Assembly: GCA_020832285.1 (NCBI GenBank)
Contig: JAFIFB010000129.1
Coordinates: 1 to 64,000, forward strand
Origin: Balneolaceae bacterium
GTDB taxonomy: Bacteria; Bacteroidota; Rhodothermia; Balneolales; Balneolaceae
Direction: 5' to 3'
DNA: 64,000 nt
Part shown: positions 28,413 through 34,699 of the stretch, in pieces
Layout: each line of letters begins with the position of its first letter
How positions within the stretch are numbered: the stretch's first letter is position 1
The notes under the pieces: generated by a model
Told to the model about the DNA's origin: nothing
The model's input: only the letters and a program-made list of their open reading frames with translations
Database searches by the model: none
Made by a program: the position numbers and the translations under genes

Positions 28413-29084
28413 TTATTCAGTAACAGTCAGCTCCAGAACTTCATCAGCCACTTCATCCCCTACAATCTGCCGCATTTTCTGCAAAGCTTGATCTGTTTGC
28501 CCTTTGCGAATCAAATCCAGAACATCAGAATCGACCAATTGATACCAGGTATCTTTTCGCTGGTCAAAATCGGAGTAATGCTTTTTCATTGGATCCCGCA
28601 TCTTATGCATCAGCGTCAAAAAAAGATTGTACTCTTCACCGAACTCCTTCTCGAACCGCTCCCGCAGCCGAACTGCCAAAGTAGGTGCAGCTCCGCTTGT
28701 GGAAATTGAAAGGGTCAGTGGTCCGCGTTTTACCAAAGATCCGAATGAAAAATTGGCGTGTGGAATATCATCCATTACATTCACAAGAATTCCGAGTCTC
28801 TCAGCTTCCCGGTAGACTTGCTCATTGGTATTTCCTTCAAATTCTGCTACAATCGCCATAAATGCGCCTTCCAGGTCACCTTCTTTATAGTGGCGCGGAA
28901 TCCATTCAAAGCGGCCATCTTCTGCCCATTTTCGCAAATCATCTGTCAAATGCGGACTGATGACGGTAAGCCTGGCTTTGGCTTCCAAAAGTTCCGCAAT
29001 TTTTCTTTCTGCTTCGTGATCTCCGCCAAGCAGCACAGTATTCTTCTCATGAAGGCGGGTTAAATAAATCGGGTAAACATTCAT
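28413..29084 (-). CDS. Precorrin-2 dehydrogenase/sirohydrochlorin ferrochelatase (Met8p/CysG N-terminal type)
   Basis: This 223-residue protein finishes siroheme synthesis by oxidising precorrin-2 with NAD+ and inserting iron. NTVLLGGDHEAERKIAEL is the NAD-binding motif. GSLVKRGPLTLSISTSGAAPTLAVRLRE spans the conserved siroheme-synthase central segment. The ATG at 29084 is used because conservation begins at MNVYPIYL; an earlier ATG at 29108 adds eight residues. It is the last gene of the - strand sulfur operon and complements CobA encoded two genes upstream. Confidence 0.88.
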   Translation of the reverse strand: MNVYPIYLTRLHEKNTVLLGGDHEAERKIAELLEAKARLTVISPHLTDDLRKWAEDGRFEWIPRHYKEGDLEGAFMAIVAEFEGNTNEQVYREAERLGILVNVMDDIPHANFSFGSLVKRGPLTLSISTSGAAPTLAVRLRERFEKEFGEEYNLFLTLMHKMRDPMKKHYSDFDQRKDTWYQLVDSDVLDLIRKGQTDQALQKMRQIVGDEVADEVLELTVTE

Positions 29085-29240
29085 ATATCTATATTTTGAT
29101 GGTGGCAAGGAAACTATGCAAAACCTCAGGGATGGTATGTTTCGCTACACTGTATGCCAGGCGTAAATGTATTTAACGTGACAGATTTTTGCTATCTAAT
29201 TCCAACCTCAGGCTTTGCTTCCGGGTATTCCACCCTGCTC

Positions 29241-30032
29241 CTAACTCTTTACATTTTTATAGTATTGCGCAGACAGATGAATACCACACTCCGTTTTTTC
29301 CCGGTTTTTCCACCGTCCGTTTCGCTCATCTTCCTGGTGGTTATCAATCGGCTGCGTGCAGGGAATACAGCCAATAGTTGGGTAACCGTGGTCGTGCAGT
29401 GGATTATAAGGAAGATCGTACCTTTCGATATAATCCCATACATCGTCCCGGTTCCAGTTCGCTAACGGATTAATTTTTACCACTTCGTTCAGCGGATCCC
29501 ACTCAAAAATTTCGGTCTGCTTACGTGTGTCAGACTGGCTTCGCCGGATACCTGTAACCCATGCTTTTTTATCGGCCAGATAATTCTTGAGCGGAAGCAC
29601 TTTTCTCAAATAGCAGCATTTATCGGGATCACTTTTCCATAGTTCATCACCAAACTGCTCTGACTGGTCATCCAGTGTAAGTGATGCATTTACACGCTTA
29701 ATATTCAGACCAAACCTTTCTTCGAGATCATCGCGCAGTTTATAGGTTTCGTTAAATAAAAGATGTGTATCAAGGTAAAATACGGTTAAGGGAATCTGAT
29801 GTGTTACCAGTGTATGAATCAATAGCACACCAGATGGACCAAAACCCGTTCCCATAACCATCTCATTGCCAAACTGGCGGTAACCCCACTCCAGAATTTC
29901 ATGAGGCTGGCTGTCTTTAAAACGGGCGTTCAGACCGTCCAAATCGTCATAAGAAATGTTGTCCATCTTACTGTTTCCGTTTGCGACAAGCTGTGTTTGT
30001 GAAAAATCGATCAATCCGTCAATAACATTCAT
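29241..30032 (-). CDS. cysH: Assimilatory adenylyl-sulfate (APS) reductase, CysH family
   Basis: This 263-residue reductase converts activated sulfate to sulfite with thioredoxin or glutathione. The paired cysteine motifs DKCCYL (C139, C140) and IGCIPC (C222, C225) bind a 4Fe-4S cluster and mark APS- rather than PAPS-reducing enzymes. The catalytic Cys lies in KTECGIH (C249). The ATG at 30032 with AGG upstream is preferred. A TTG at 30062 would overlap the cobA stop by 8 bases and cannot be excluded. ATP sulfurylase is not in the window. Confidence 0.93.
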   Translation of the reverse strand: MNVIDGLIDFSQTQLVANGNSKMDNISYDDLDGLNARFKDSQPHEILEWGYRQFGNEMVMGTGFGPSGVLLIHTLVTHQIPLTVFYLDTHLLFNETYKLRDDLEERFGLNIKRVNASLTLDDQSEQFGDELWKSDPDKCCYLRKVLPLKNYLADKKAWVTGIRRSQSDTRKQTEIFEWDPLNEVVKINPLANWNRDDVWDYIERYDLPYNPLHDHGYPTIGCIPCTQPIDNHQEDERNGRWKNREKTECGIHLSAQYYKNVKS

Positions 30033-30054
30033 GATTTCAGGCCTGTTTATGATT

Positions 30055-30867
30055 TTATCCAACTACTGCACTTTGTATTTCAGTTTCTTTATTTATATCT
30101 ACATCAACCGGTTCGGTAAACCAGGCAAGGGTGTCAGCCATCGATGCCAGTTCTCCGATTATGATTGTTGCTGGTGGTGTCAGGTATTGAGCCTTATCGA
30201 TAATCGTTTCCAGCGTGCCGGTAATCGTAATCTGATTTTTATATGAAGCTTTTTCAACGATAGCGACCGGAGTCTCAGGCTTTCTGCCCAGAAGAACAAG
30301 CTGTGTGACAATAAGCTCCAGGTTTTTCATTCCCATCAGAACCACCAGAGTATCGGCATGTGCAATGTGCTGCCAGTTCTTAAAAAGGTCTTTTTTATCG
30401 CGCGTATATCCTGTTACCACGGTAAAAGAGCGGGCTTTGCCCCTGTGTGTGACCGGAATACCTGCATAGGCAGGTGCTGCAAGTGCACTGCTGATACCGG
30501 GAACGATCTCGAAAGGAATCTTCTCTTTAGCCAGCGCTTCGCACTCCTCACCACCCCGTCCAAAGACAAATGGGTCGCCCCCTTTCAGGCGCACAACCAC
30601 TTTTCCTTCTTTTGCTTTAGCCACAATAATGCCATTAATCTGCTCCTGCGAAACCGATGGTTTGCCGGGCCTTTTACCAACATAAATACGCTCGGAATTT
30701 ACCGGTGCGTATGATAGCAGCTCAGGGTTAACAAGGCGGTCATAAATAAGAACCTGAGATTTTTTGATGGTGTTAATTCCCCTTAGTGTAATCAGGTCGG
30801 GGTCTCCCGGCCCGGCACCTACCAGGTAAACTGTTCCATTTCGTTGAAATTGATTTCTGTTAATCAC
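30055..30867 (-). CDS. cobA: Uroporphyrinogen-III C-methyltransferase (SUMT)
   Basis: This 270-residue SAM-dependent enzyme methylates uroporphyrinogen III twice to precorrin-2, the first step toward siroheme. Motifs are GTVYLVGAGPGDPDLITLRG, VRLKGGDPFVFGRGGEE and GIPVTHRG. It lies between sulfite reductase and APS reductase, both in the same operon; siroheme is the cofactor of the sulfite reductase. Confidence 0.95.
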   Translation of the reverse strand: MINRNQFQRNGTVYLVGAGPGDPDLITLRGINTIKKSQVLIYDRLVNPELLSYAPVNSERIYVGKRPGKPSVSQEQINGIIVAKAKEGKVVVRLKGGDPFVFGRGGEECEALAKEKIPFEIVPGISSALAAPAYAGIPVTHRGKARSFTVVTGYTRDKKDLFKNWQHIAHADTLVVLMGMKNLELIVTQLVLLGRKPETPVAIVEKASYKNQITITGTLETIIDKAQYLTPPATIIIGELASMADTLAWFTEPVDVDINKETEIQSAVVG

Positions 30868-30898: not shown

Positions 30899-32569
30899 CT
30901 AAACGGCCACTTCTTCGACCTGACCAATAACCTCACGCTCCCAGTAATCGCCGAATGATTCACCATTTTTCCTGTTCACACTATATCTTTCAAGCAGTGG
31001 ACGCACTTCACTTACCAGTTCTTCAAGAGGCACAAGCTCTTTATAGAGTTTGTTCAGCCGGGTACCTGATGGGTCTCCGCCAATAAAAATGGAATATTTG
31101 TTTAGCGATTGTCCCACAAAACCGATGTCTGCGACATAAGGACGTGCACAGCCGTTGGGGCAGCCGGTCATACGAACGGAGAGTTTTTCATCTTCCAGTC
31201 CCAGTTCGTTAACCACTTTTTCAAAGTCGCGGATTATATCGGGAAATACTCTTTCAGATTCGGTAATTGCCAGTCCGCAGGTGGGCATTGCGGGGCAGGC
31301 CATTGAAAGCTTTAATAAATTAGAATAATCCTCACCCCAAACTATACCATAACTCTTTAACTGCTCTTCTACCCCTTTTTTGTCTTCTTCGCTGATATTT
31401 GTCAAAAGCAGGTTGTGATTCGGAGTGAATCTGACTTCTGGTTTAAACTTCTCGATCGTTTCCCGGAGTCCTGTTTTTAACTGACGGTTTTCATCATCTT
31501 TGATGCGGCCATTTTCGATGGAAAGGCCTAAAAACCACTTGCCGTCGGATTGTTTATTCCATCCCAGGTAAAGATCGAGCTCAAATTTTGGTATCTCTTT
31601 AAATGGATCTAACTGGTATCCAATACGGCTCTCCAGTTCCTTTTTAAACTTATCTATACCCCATTTATCCACCAGATATTTCATGCGAGCCACTTTACGG
31701 TTTTTACGCTCGCCATTATCACGCTGGATGGCAATAATTGCCTTCACTACTTCAAGAACTTTATCAGATGTGATGTATCCTAAATGATCACCAAGACGCG
31801 GAAATGTGTTCGCTTTACGATGATGCATACCCATTCCACCGCCAACAACCACATTAAATCCTTTGATTTTGTGATCCTCATCAAATATTGCTACCAGCCC
31901 GATATCCTGTGTGTAAAGATCGATACTGTTATCACCCGGAAGAGCAACACCAATTTTGAACTTACGCGGCAAATATGATTTTCCATAAAGAGGCTCTCCA
32001 ACTTCTACTTCTTCCTCGCCACTGTAAATTTTTTCGCCATCCAGCCATAATTCATGGTATGCATTGGTTGCAGGCAACAGTTCATCGGAAAGCTGATCGG
32101 CAAAAAATTGAACCTGTTCTTGTCTACCGTCTACATCGGGAACCGGAGTTGCCATGACATTTCTCACAATATCACCACAGGCACCAATTGTTGAAATCAT
32201 CGATTGGTGCAAATCACTTAATGTGCTTTTCAACTCTTTTTTGATAATTCCGTAAAGCTGAAAGGTCTGTCGTGTGGTCGCGCGAATAGTATGATCTCCA
32301 TAGCGATCGGCAATGTCATCAATGGCAAGATATTGCTCAGCAGTAATTTTTCCAGCAGGTATACGTCCGCGAATCATAAACATGTAATGTCTGTCTCTGC
32401 CTTTTCGAAGATCCCGGTCATCCTGCTGGTACGAACCGTGAAACTTTAAAATCTGATAAGCTTCCTTGCTAATGAAAGGTTCATCATTTTTCATTTCATC
32501 GGCAAGAGGGCCTCGCAAATAATTACTGTCTTCTTTTATGACTTCAACTTTACTTTTTTTGGTGCTCAT
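30899..32569 (-). CDS. cysI: Assimilatory sulfite reductase, siroheme/4Fe-4S hemoprotein (CysI type)
   Basis: This 556-residue protein reduces sulfite to sulfide with six electrons. Two pseudo-symmetric halves are visible, each with a ferredoxin-like and a siroheme-binding part. Cluster ligands are C425 and C431 (CPAMPTC) and C470 and C474 (CPNGC). Siroheme-contacting basic residues lie around RATTRQTFQLYG and MGMHHRK. The N terminus EDSNYLRGPL is typical of CysI. No CysJ flavoprotein is encoded nearby, so electrons must come from ferredoxin or a flavoprotein elsewhere. A strong hairpin lies between it and the sulfurtransferase gene. Confidence 0.94.
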   Translation of the reverse strand: MSTKKSKVEVIKEDSNYLRGPLADEMKNDEPFISKEAYQILKFHGSYQQDDRDLRKGRDRHYMFMIRGRIPAGKITAEQYLAIDDIADRYGDHTIRATTRQTFQLYGIIKKELKSTLSDLHQSMISTIGACGDIVRNVMATPVPDVDGRQEQVQFFADQLSDELLPATNAYHELWLDGEKIYSGEEEVEVGEPLYGKSYLPRKFKIGVALPGDNSIDLYTQDIGLVAIFDEDHKIKGFNVVVGGGMGMHHRKANTFPRLGDHLGYITSDKVLEVVKAIIAIQRDNGERKNRKVARMKYLVDKWGIDKFKKELESRIGYQLDPFKEIPKFELDLYLGWNKQSDGKWFLGLSIENGRIKDDENRQLKTGLRETIEKFKPEVRFTPNHNLLLTNISEEDKKGVEEQLKSYGIVWGEDYSNLLKLSMACPAMPTCGLAITESERVFPDIIRDFEKVVNELGLEDEKLSVRMTGCPNGCARPYVADIGFVGQSLNKYSIFIGGDPSGTRLNKLYKELVPLEELVSEVRPLLERYSVNRKNGESFGDYWEREVIGQVEEVAV

Positions 32570-32636: not shown

Positions 32637-33479
32637 TTATCGTTCAATTGGTGCATCAATCAGGTTGCCCCATTCTGTCCACGAACCGTCGTAATTGCGA
32701 ACATTTGGAAAATCGAGCAGCTCCTTTAAGACAAACCAGGAGTGCGCAGACCTCTCCCCGATTCGGCAGTAAGAAATGATATCCTTATCCGGTGTAATGC
32801 CTTCTGCTTCGTATAAAGCTTTAAGTTCTTCTTTTGATTTAAAGGTTCCGTCGTCGTTCACGGCTTTCGACCAGGGAATATTTTTTGCCCCGGGTATGTG
32901 ACCGGCGCGCTGGGAAAGTTCATCCAGCCCGGGTGGTGCCAGGATTTTTCCTGTAAATTCATCAGGTGAACGAACATCGACCAAACCGTGTGCCTGGCTT
33001 CCCAATGTCTCAGCAACATCATCGCGGAAAGCTCTGTACTCTTCATTGATCTCCCCGATTTTGTACTCAGCCGGTTCAACTTCAGTTGTTTCGGTGGTCA
33101 GTTCACGATTTTCGGTTTCCCATTTTTTTCGTCCGCCATCCAGAATTCGTACATCATCGTGGCCATAATACTTCAACAGCCAATATGCCCATGCGGCAAA
33201 CCAGTTGTTATTGTCGCCATAGAGAATGATGGTGGTGTCATTACTGATTCCGGATTTCGAGAGCAATGTCTCAAAATCTTCTTTGGAAGCGATAGTGCGG
33301 CGCAATTGATCCTGCAGCTCGGTTTTCCAGTTCCATCCGATGGCTCCGGGAATATGTCCCGAATCATAGGATCTTGTATTCACATCTACTTCTACTAACC
33401 GGACTCCGGTATTCTCAAGGTGCCCTGCGGCCCATTCAGTTGTTACTACTACTTTTGATTTTGTTAGTGTTTCAGGCAT
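32637..33479 (-). CDS. Rhodanese-type thiosulfate/3-mercaptopyruvate sulfurtransferase
   Basis: This 280-residue two-domain rhodanese has an inactive N-terminal domain (about 10-140) and an active C-terminal domain (about 145-280). The catalytic loop reads YCRIGERSAH with C238. The CRIGERS loop is characteristic of SseA/CysA2-type thiosulfate sulfurtransferases, which move sulfane sulfur to cyanide or other thiol acceptors. It is the first structural gene of the sulfur-assimilation operon and is preceded by the Cys-rich leader and attenuator, with 77 bases between terminator and start codon. Confidence 0.92.
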   Translation of the reverse strand: MPETLTKSKVVVTTEWAAGHLENTGVRLVEVDVNTRSYDSGHIPGAIGWNWKTELQDQLRRTIASKEDFETLLSKSGISNDTTIILYGDNNNWFAAWAYWLLKYYGHDDVRILDGGRKKWETENRELTTETTEVEPAEYKIGEINEEYRAFRDDVAETLGSQAHGLVDVRSPDEFTGKILAPPGLDELSQRAGHIPGAKNIPWSKAVNDDGTFKSKEELKALYEAEGITPDKDIISYCRIGERSAHSWFVLKELLDFPNVRNYDGSWTEWGNLIDAPIER

Positions 33480-33556
33480 TTCTGTTAAACTTTGTGTTTT
33501 TGATTATTGACGAGTGCGTGATTTCACAAAGCCATACCTGATTCAGGGACACAGGC

Positions 33557-33592
33557 AAAAAAAAAGCCCACTACCTGAATCAGGTAGTGGGC
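33557..33592 (-). terminator. Attenuator terminator in the leader of the sulfur operon
   Basis: Read on the - strand, GCCCACTACCTGA (33592-33580) pairs perfectly with TCAGGTAGTGGGC (33578-33566) across one unpaired base and is followed by nine T (33565-33557). It lies between the leader ORF and the first structural gene, inside the transcript rather than at its end, so it can only act as a conditional stop. Its mirror-symmetric T/A tracts would also let it work on the + strand. Confidence 0.9.
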
Positions 33593-33647
33593 TTTTTTCT
33601 CGAAAACTCTTCGTCAGAATTTAATTGAACATTTCGCTCCACTACCT
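33582..33647 (-). promoter_or_regulatory. Predicted antiterminator pairing overlapping the leader ORF
   Basis: The leader ORF contains AGGTAGTGG (33647-33639), identical to nine bases of the terminator 3' arm. It can therefore pair perfectly with CCACTACCT (33590-33582) in the terminator 5' arm and prevent terminator formation. A third element, CCTGAATCAGG (33547-33537), is complementary to the terminator apex. The complementarity is directly visible; the regulatory switch is inferred. Confidence 0.7.
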
Positions 33648-33694
33648 TTCGGCATACACATACAACACATCATAGCACAACAAGTGTGCATCAT
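33614..33694 (-). CDS. Cysteine/methionine-rich leader peptide of the sulfur-assimilation operon
   Basis: This is a 26-residue ORF beginning MMHTCCAMMCCMCM and ending at TGA. Six of its 26 residues are Cys (5, 6, 10, 11, 13, 22) and six are Met (1, 2, 8, 9, 12, 14). All Cys codons are TGT. It lies immediately upstream of an intrinsic terminator in front of genes for sulfide production, and includes the 9-base antiterminator strand in codons 16-19. This matches a transcription-attenuation leader whose ribosome would stall when Cys-tRNA is scarce. Cys-rich leader ORFs are known as attenuators in mycobacteria; I know of none described in this group. A tiny metal-binding protein is an alternative reading. 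Confidence 0.75.
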   Translation of the reverse strand: MMHTCCAMMCCMCMPKGSGAKCSIKF

Positions 33695-34066
33695 GTAGCA
33701 GATAGCGGAATTAAAATGTTGGGTATTCATCAATTTTTTTATTCTTTCAGTTCCTTTATTCTGAACTGTGTTAATGTTAGTGACTTTATCCGATTAAATC
33801 AAAAATAAATGAAAGAATTTTCTTTCGCTTTTATAATAAATTCCAAATACCACAATAAAAAGAAAAAAAAGCGCTTACAGGCTTACAATAAGTAAACCAA
33901 TTAAGCTGTATTTATCTTGAAATCAGACCTGGTAGTCTTATAATCAGTTAACTTACTACTCCATGTTGTGCGTGTATGAATGAAAATAAGCGAGTGATAC
34001 TACATTTGGTTCACAACGCTGACAGATCCGATGGGCACCTGTCAGGTTGTTTGATACGACACGACA
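33695..34066. other. 5' leader/promoter region of the sulfur operon with two palindromes
   Basis: This 372-base AT-rich gap should contain the promoter for the sulfur operon on the - strand; I could not fix a convincing -33/-7 pair. It includes CAGTTC (33748-33753)/GAACTG (33763-33768), a possible operator or leader hairpin, and the dispersed CTGACAG palindrome described separately. No ORF is supported. Confidence 0.5.
34019..34045. repeat. Dispersed CTGACAG...CTGTCAG palindrome, copy 1
   Basis: CTGACAG (34019-34025) and CTGTCAG (34039-34045) flank ATCCGATGGGCAC. A related copy with a similar spacer lies at 55351-55377. It sits just downstream of the YicG-like gene. Because the spacer is also similar between copies, this looks like a small dispersed repeat family rather than chance. 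Confidence 0.5.
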
Positions 34067-34699
34067 TTATCTGACCGGATTCTCACTGAATCTCGGAAGT
34101 CCAAGTTCGTATTTTACGGAAATTACGCGAATCAGAATAATTACAGCTATGCCCAGGATCTGTGCGACAAACAGAGAATCAAAATATTGCAGTATCAAAA
34201 GAAAGAGAATACCACCGGTAATGGCGGCCATTGCATACACTTCTTTTTGAAAAATAAGCGGCTTATCACCAGCTAAAACATCTCTCAGAACTCCTCCAAA
34301 ACATCCGGTTATCACACCCAGAGCAACAGATACACCACCACTCATACCTACCTCAAGTGCAATTTGGGCTCCCATCACAGTAAAAAGTCCAAGGCCGGCA
34401 GCATCAAAGGTAAAGAGCCAGCCCTCCAGTTTATTCATTCTGTGATAAACCGCCAGGCTAAATATGAATCCGGTTGTTGCTGAAGTGATGGCCAGTGTAT
34501 CTGTCAGCCAGTTTACAGGCAAGTTGCCGATCAGAAGATCCCGGATAGTACCACCCCCTATGGCTGTAACAAATGCCAGAACAAAAATACCGAAAATATC
34601 AAAACGTTTCCGGATAGCTGCCATCGCACCCGAAACGGCAAATGCAAACGTTCCGGCTGCTTCAATCATCAATAGAAATGTATCACCGGGAATTTCCAT
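34067..34699 (-). CDS. YicG/UPF0126-type membrane channel protein (TRIC family)
   Basis: This 210-residue protein has about seven hydrophobic helices arranged as two similar halves. The first half carries AIGGGTIRDLLIG and the second CFGGVLRDVLAG, the paired Gly-rich G-x-x-R-D motifs of UPF0126. Homologues are described as glycine transporters or TRIC-like cation channels. It is upstream of the sulfur operon on the same strand but separated by 587 bases from the sulfurtransferase gene. Confidence 0.9.
   Translation of the reverse strand: MEIPGDTFLLMIEAAGTFAFAVSGAMAAIRKRFDIFGIFVLAFVTAIGGGTIRDLLIGNLPVNWLTDTLAITSATTGFIFSLAVYHRMNKLEGWLFTFDAAGLGLFTVMGAQIALEVGMSGGVSVALGVITGCFGGVLRDVLAGDKPLIFQKEVYAMAAITGGILFLLILQYFDSLFVAQILGIAVIILIRVISVKYELGLPRFSENPVR

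Follow-up and report, generated by a model that had tools for sequence, protein, structure and literature searches.

Ribosome-mediated attenuators of the trp and his type, which occur in Proteobacteria and other bacteria, comprise a leader ORF with codons of the pathway concerned, three mutually exclusive RNA pairings (1:2, 2:3 and 3:4) and an intrinsic terminator placed before a biosynthetic operon. Among leaders built on Cys codons, the uORFC-8-2 motif, located upstream of cysS in Rhodobacterales, combines a Cys-codon leader ORF with an intrinsic terminator and has been predicted to act by ribosome-mediated attenuation (PMC8632094). Poly-Cys leader ORFs have been also found before cys/cbs genes of mycobacteria, Propionibacterium and Bifidobacterium, where no conserved terminator accompanies them (PMC1262725), and the mycobacterial ones are presented, in the statement by which PMC13236596 cites Canestrari 2020, as cysteine-responsive, leaderless ORFs that work by translation attenuation. 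Leader peptides that act as attenuators ahead of amino-acid operons are also noted for Flavobacterium psychrophilum in a paper whose main text gives no particulars (PMC9723704). The mechanism class, the mycobacterial Cys leaders on cys operons and the terminator-based Cys attenuation of cysS in Rhodobacterales are therefore already known. On the other hand, in the open-licence literature we found no report of sulfate assimilation being attenuated through Cys in Bacteroidota or Balneolota, which is weak evidence of absence, and no regulator of cysteine synthesis is described for Balneolales in the literature searched.

On the minus strand of the window (the whole stretch of 64,000 nt of DNA that was analysed), a glycine-transporter-type gene is followed by a leader ORF, a terminator and a sulfurtransferase-cysI-cobA-cysH-met8 operon, with the terminator lying about 470 nt beyond the first of these genes and about 80 nt ahead of the sulfurtransferase start (Table 1). 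The initial annotation had described the ORF as one of 26 codons with six Cys and six Met. A Cys/Met-rich ORF is indeed present, but the conserved version has 38 codons with seven Cys and seven Met, since relatives use the ATG at 33730, 12 codons earlier than the internal ATG that opens the shorter version. The full peptide is MNTQHFNSAICYMMHTCCAMMCCMCMPKGSGAKCSIKF, with Cys at positions 11, 17, 18, 22, 23, 25 and 34. It is the richest in Cys among the 460 ATG ORFs of 20-60 aa in the window (seven Cys, versus four in the next best), and dinucleotide shuffling of the intergenic region produced a small ORF with at least seven Cys in 13 of 5000 cases, a rate at which the window sequence by itself would not be conclusive; the case is carried by conservation. 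Scans of the window leader for sigma-70 and Bacteroidota-type promoters gave nothing above shuffles.

Table 1. Positions of the features of the window, followed by two further leaders of the same genome
Feature	Position	Strand	Basis or remark
Glycine-transporter-type gene, upstream	34699-34067	-	
Leader ORF, 38 codons, 7 Cys and 7 Met	33614..33730	-	start ATG and Cys/Met cluster conserved in relatives
Segment 1 (protector), partner of segment 2	33699..33721	-	folding
Cys/Met stall cluster, codons 11-25 (CYMMHTCCAMMCCMC)	33656..33700	-	stalls modelled at Cys 11-23 free segment 2
Segment 2 (antiterminator strand AGGTAGTGG-A-GC)	33636..33647	-	conserved complementarity, folding
Small hairpin within 2:3 loop	33604..33622	-	stabilises antiterminator in fold model
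Segment 3, terminator 5' arm	33580..33598	-	inverted repeat, conservation
Segment 4, terminator 3' arm	33560..33578	-	inverted repeat, conservation
U-tract of nine T	33557..33565	-	sequence
Inverted repeat GCTTTGTG...CACAAAG, sulfurtransferase 5'UTR	33490..33532	-	conserved
Sulfurtransferase, two rhodanese domains, first gene of operon	32637..33479	-	
cysI, assimilatory sulfite reductase hemoprotein	30899..32569	-	NF010029, 775 bits
cobA, uroporphyrinogen-III C-methyltransferase	30055..30867	-	
cysH, (phospho)adenylyl-sulfate reductase	29241..30062	-	
met8-like protein, siroheme synthase N-terminal domain	28413..29108	-	
Cys/Met leader and terminator directly upstream of SAM-I riboswitch, locus L174	G000:C108:38612-38334	-	window's own genome
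Trp leader (MKSIMIHTNWWWPGRTYQAVESL) and terminator before trpE-trpS, locus L175	G000:C107:1266-1387	+	window's own genome

The leader RNA has, as predicted from its sequence, all four segments of a trp-type attenuator, and the helices 1:2, 2:3 and 3:4 that they would form are mutually exclusive. The 3:4 hairpin is a predicted, near-perfect intrinsic terminator. It had been annotated as a perfect 13-bp stem with nine T; both the stem and the T-run are there, but the arms extend to 19 nt each and are 100% complementary with the A/U flanks counted. The 9-base strand that had been noticed within the ORF as a complement of the terminator 5' arm is the core of segment 2 (AGGTAGTGG, 33647-33639, extendable by GC), which pairs with segment 3; shuffling the stretch between ORF and terminator 5000 times yielded such an exact 9-mer in 4 cases. 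Segment 1 is a further, upstream paired segment inside the leader ORF. Computed fold energies are -28.2 kcal/mol for the 3:4 terminator, -26.3 kcal/mol for 1:2 and -23.4 kcal/mol for the span of the 2:3 antiterminator including its helper hairpin. Folding of the leader region, which had been proposed as a check, gave z = -8.7 for the 179-nt leader.

We interpret the window element, with high confidence, as a ribosome-mediated (trp-type) transcription attenuator, in which a ribosome stalled on the Cys/Met leader very probably switches the sulfate-assimilation operon on when cysteine is scarce. The sensor input would be charged tRNA-Cys, possibly with tRNA-Met as well. When Cys-tRNA is scarce, the ribosome would stall in the Cys/Met cluster and mask segment 1, upon which segment 2 would pair with segment 3 to form the antiterminator, and RNA polymerase would read into the sulfurtransferase-cysI-cobA-cysH-met8 operon. 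When Cys is ample, the ribosome would reach the stop codon, and either 1:2 would re-form behind it or the ribosome itself would screen segment 2; with segment 2 unavailable, the 3:4 terminator would form and transcription would stop. Modelling that assumes a 15-nt ribosome footprint downstream of the A site agrees with these steps for most of the cluster: a stall at Cys codon 11, 17, 18, 22 or 23 leaves segment 2 exposed, and the uncovered RNA then adopts the 2:3 fold; a stall at Cys 25 covers the start of segment 2; once the ribosome has arrived at the stop codon, the RNA in front of it takes the terminator fold. Since in relatives about 6-17 nt separate the end of the cluster from segment 2, a stall on most of its Cys codons would mask segment 1 and free segment 2. 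The initial annotation had placed the stall at a TGT cluster in codons 5-13; in the full ORF, the stall cluster occupies codons 11-25. It had also pointed to a complication, namely a stop codon about 22-23 nt past the antiterminator strand; the spacing is as described, but the difficulty is answered by segment 1, which had been overlooked, because it would recapture segment 2 behind the ribosome and thereby leave the terminator free.

Compared with trp/his-type attenuators, the window leader shares the ORF with pathway codons, the three exclusive pairings and the terminator before the operon, but it differs in its Cys/Met codons, in its association with sulfate assimilation, in its occurrence in Balneolales and in the greater distance from segment 2 to the stop codon. 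With uORFC-8-2 it shares the coupling of a Cys-codon ORF to an intrinsic terminator. That motif, however, has two tandem Cys codons (positions 14-15) and is found on cysS only, in alphaproteobacteria, and not on sulfate-assimilation or metY operons, whereas the window leader precedes sulfurtransferase-cysI-cobA-cysH-met8 and has no tandem Cys at positions 14-15.

The search of related genomes that had been suggested at the outset was carried out with the sulfurtransferase as the query against 129 genomes of the same order, 27 of which had a match. A Cys/Met leader, segment 2 and terminator were found together at 21 Balneolales loci, a set that includes the window itself and a near-identical relative (sulfurtransferase 98% identical), as well as Gracilimonas mengyeensis (L013/L031), a relative that puts the window in the family Balneolaceae, and that reaches into another family at one locus (L023). 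At six loci from other families (L024-L029), the leader is absent directly before the sulfurtransferase. In one genome, a second copy of the sulfurtransferase gene (L015, G016:C43:151678), beside L030, has kept the hairpin and lost the Cys ORF.

In the alignment of these loci, 95.8% of cells are paired in 2:3 and 93.3% in 3:4, and these fractions fall to 27-60% and 31-47%, respectively, when the partner is slid. Both sides have changed in three pairs of 2:3 and in five pairs of 3:4, counts of non-independent events given that the loci are phylogenetically related; the 2:3 count is not extreme against shuffles (53 of 500). Segment 2 follows the terminator of its own locus: GATAGCGG matches CCGCTATC in L005, GATAGTGG matches CCACTATC in L008, and GGCAGTGG matches CCGCTGCC in L006, and the complementarity to the own terminator beats dinucleotide shuffles in all 18 cysI leaders tested. 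Pairing of segment 1 with segment 2 is better than in shuffles (p<=0.1) at 15 of the 21 loci, with sequences varying between genomes, and is no better than in shuffles in L006, L007 and L011. Homologous leaders that kept neither the Cys codons nor the complementary strands had been named as the finding that would speak against attenuation; the homologues keep both.

A covariance model of the element was searched in the order, and the stronger matches were inspected for neighbouring genes. In a class-wide search, matches of the model (R1) with E<=1e-6 were confined to two families of the order; its weaker matches, mostly generic terminators and the antisense of the symmetrical hairpin, were left out of the counts. 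Across the order, Cys/Met leaders precede cysI or cobA-cysH-met8 operons and a permease with CitMHS and sodium:sulfate symporter domains that is followed by cysD; in the window's own genome, no Cys leader was found before cysD. They also precede TonB-dependent receptors (L148, L150, L159 and L164), where the pairing of segment 2 is bulged and weak; their presence suggests that these receptors import a sulfur compound. At L162 (G124:C179:4639-4768), a Cys/Met leader with weak 2:3 complementarity and a terminator stand before a luciferase-like monooxygenase gene followed by one for an FMN reductase, a pair that perhaps serves the use of sulfones or sulfonates when sulfur is limited. The model also matched architecturally similar elements reading NWWWP before trpE-trpS, both in relatives and in the window's own genome (L175, Table 1). 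These provide a natural control for the attenuator interpretation, because the identity of the codons follows the pathway, Trp before trpE-trpS and Cys/Met before sulfur genes.

Permease-cysD leaders (L151, L152, L157 and L161, all on the minus strand, and L155) have a second Cys run, of the GSGCCMC-stop type, right after segment 2. Segment 2 would be covered by a ribosome that stalled on this run, an effect for which the simple model offers no explanation.

The window's own genome contains another Cys/Met leader (peptide MKSSDKNISCCLCMMCMRCSA), which is accompanied by a terminator of its own and immediately followed by a SAM-I riboswitch (RF00162, 71.4 bits; L174, Table 1). The genes that follow encode, in order, what we take by eye from their sequences to be a CoA-binding protein, then MetY, which was confirmed, and then presumably a flavin reductase, an OsmC-type protein and MetX. 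At 36 of 51 loci examined in the order, the SAM-I riboswitch is preceded by a leader ORF that holds three Cys or more, a biased frequency, because the first 30 were the best-scoring riboswitches and the last 20 were picked partly through weak matches to the model. No Cys leader was found at any of the nine SAM-I loci whose first downstream ORF begins with MGTMIQRY or MGTMIQRF; the two of these nine that were checked are both metH. Of 25 tandem leaders tested, 15 have a segment 2 whose complementarity to the terminator of the same leader exceeds that of shuffles, and the sequences of segment 2 here (CCGAAGG, AAGGGCT, GAGAGCC) are unrelated to those of the cysI leaders. A leader-peptide attenuator in series with a SAM-I riboswitch would constitute a natural two-input gate: each has its own terminator, and metY/metX would be transcribed only when charged tRNA-Cys and SAM are both low. 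No report of such a tandem was found in the open-licence literature. While many Balneolales genomes have this tandem, the window element itself is not a riboswitch: an Rfam scan of the whole window gave no match at the family gathering score, SAM-I included, and a known riboswitch was rejected as its identity.

It is likely, if less secure than the attenuator at the window itself, that Balneolales have a sulfur regulon, with the window element as one of its members, controlled by attenuation at Cys/Met codons in several operons, and that metY/metX are gated by two serial attenuators, a Cys/Met leader and then a SAM-I riboswitch. The scope proposed for this regulon covers sulfate uptake and activation, sulfite reduction, TonB receptors and the luciferase-like monooxygenase. 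Both the regulon and the tandem arrangement are unreported in the open-licence literature searched, and the recurrence of the leader before several sulfur genes makes the regulon a testable prediction. Balneolales could control sulfur assimilation in this way without a protein regulator, by reading the charging of tRNA-Cys on the ribosome.

In the wider phylum, the element occurs before metY and before cysH-cysD-cysN in a few genomes and is absent at most loci examined; before metY in the order of genome G308, Cys leaders are present at only 3 of 15 loci, all of one genus, so that their occurrence before metY elsewhere in the phylum is sporadic. A strict scan of the 350 nt upstream of 80 named sulfurtransferase relatives revealed Cys leaders at four loci, in Gracilimonas, two Acidobacteria and one member of Chloroflexi, and none on the opposite strand; other thresholds add a third locus from Acidobacteria (L035) and one from Anaerolinea (L049). 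In the three Acidobacteria (L032, L035 and L044), the Cys cluster is followed by a strand of 8-9 nt, (G)CTCTGGCG, exactly complementary to the terminator arm. Such Cys leaders with matching antiterminators before a homologous sulfurtransferase suggest that cysteine attenuation may be more widespread than reported.

The initial annotation had called the element a Cys-responsive transcription attenuator; the ORF, antiterminator and terminator are conserved and co-varying, but Met is as enriched as Cys, and the signal could be both. The leaders of the cysI set contain 15.8% Cys and 15.5% non-start Met, as compared with 0.7% and 1.6% in the sulfurtransferase and CysI proteins. Cys is quite probably the main signal of the window attenuator. 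A stall signalling a general shortage of sulfur amino acids (Cys and Met), or mainly of Met, instead of Cys alone, is the less likely reading but a serious one, as Met is the other sulfur amino acid and the metY/metX operon has the same kind of leader. It fits less well with the distant leaders of Acidobacteria L032, L035 and L044, which are Cys-rich without enrichment in Met, and with those leaders of Balneolales that hold Cys runs with few Met (e.g. ICMCCC in L023).

Control could instead be exerted mainly on translation or through Rho, the mode proposed for Actinobacteria, and the hairpin would then be of secondary importance. The mycobacterial poly-Cys leaders, which are likewise Cys-rich and precede cys operons, are reported to attenuate translation (Canestrari 2020, cited through PMC13236596), and a conserved inverted repeat stands before the sulfurtransferase start; nevertheless, such control is improbable here, given the strong intrinsic terminator with its U-tract and the co-varying antiterminator, whereas the actinobacterial leaders lack conserved terminators (PMC1262725). 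Even less probable is a functional Cys-rich small protein, for instance a metal-binding one, with the terminator incidental to it. Metal-binding peptides are typically high in Cys and Met, as this ORF is, but the N-terminus and the order of the cluster vary among relatives, and the ORF has no Pfam match. Besides, the codons across segment 2 spell GSG in most relatives and KVV or VVD in L010-L013, i.e. in different frames, which argues that the RNA pairing and not the peptide is selected. Least credible of all is an ordinary terminator of the upstream transcription unit next to a chance ORF, for although intergenic terminators are common and the glycine-transporter-type gene ends on the same strand at 34067, the hairpin lies far from that gene and close to the sulfurtransferase start, and the ORF, segment 2 and terminator have been conserved together, co-vary and recur before unrelated sulfur genes.

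Downstream of the putative attenuator, the inverted repeat GCTTTGTG...CACAAAG is kept in most Balneolaceae leaders, about 15-55 nt before the sulfurtransferase start, and is possibly a second regulatory or stability element.
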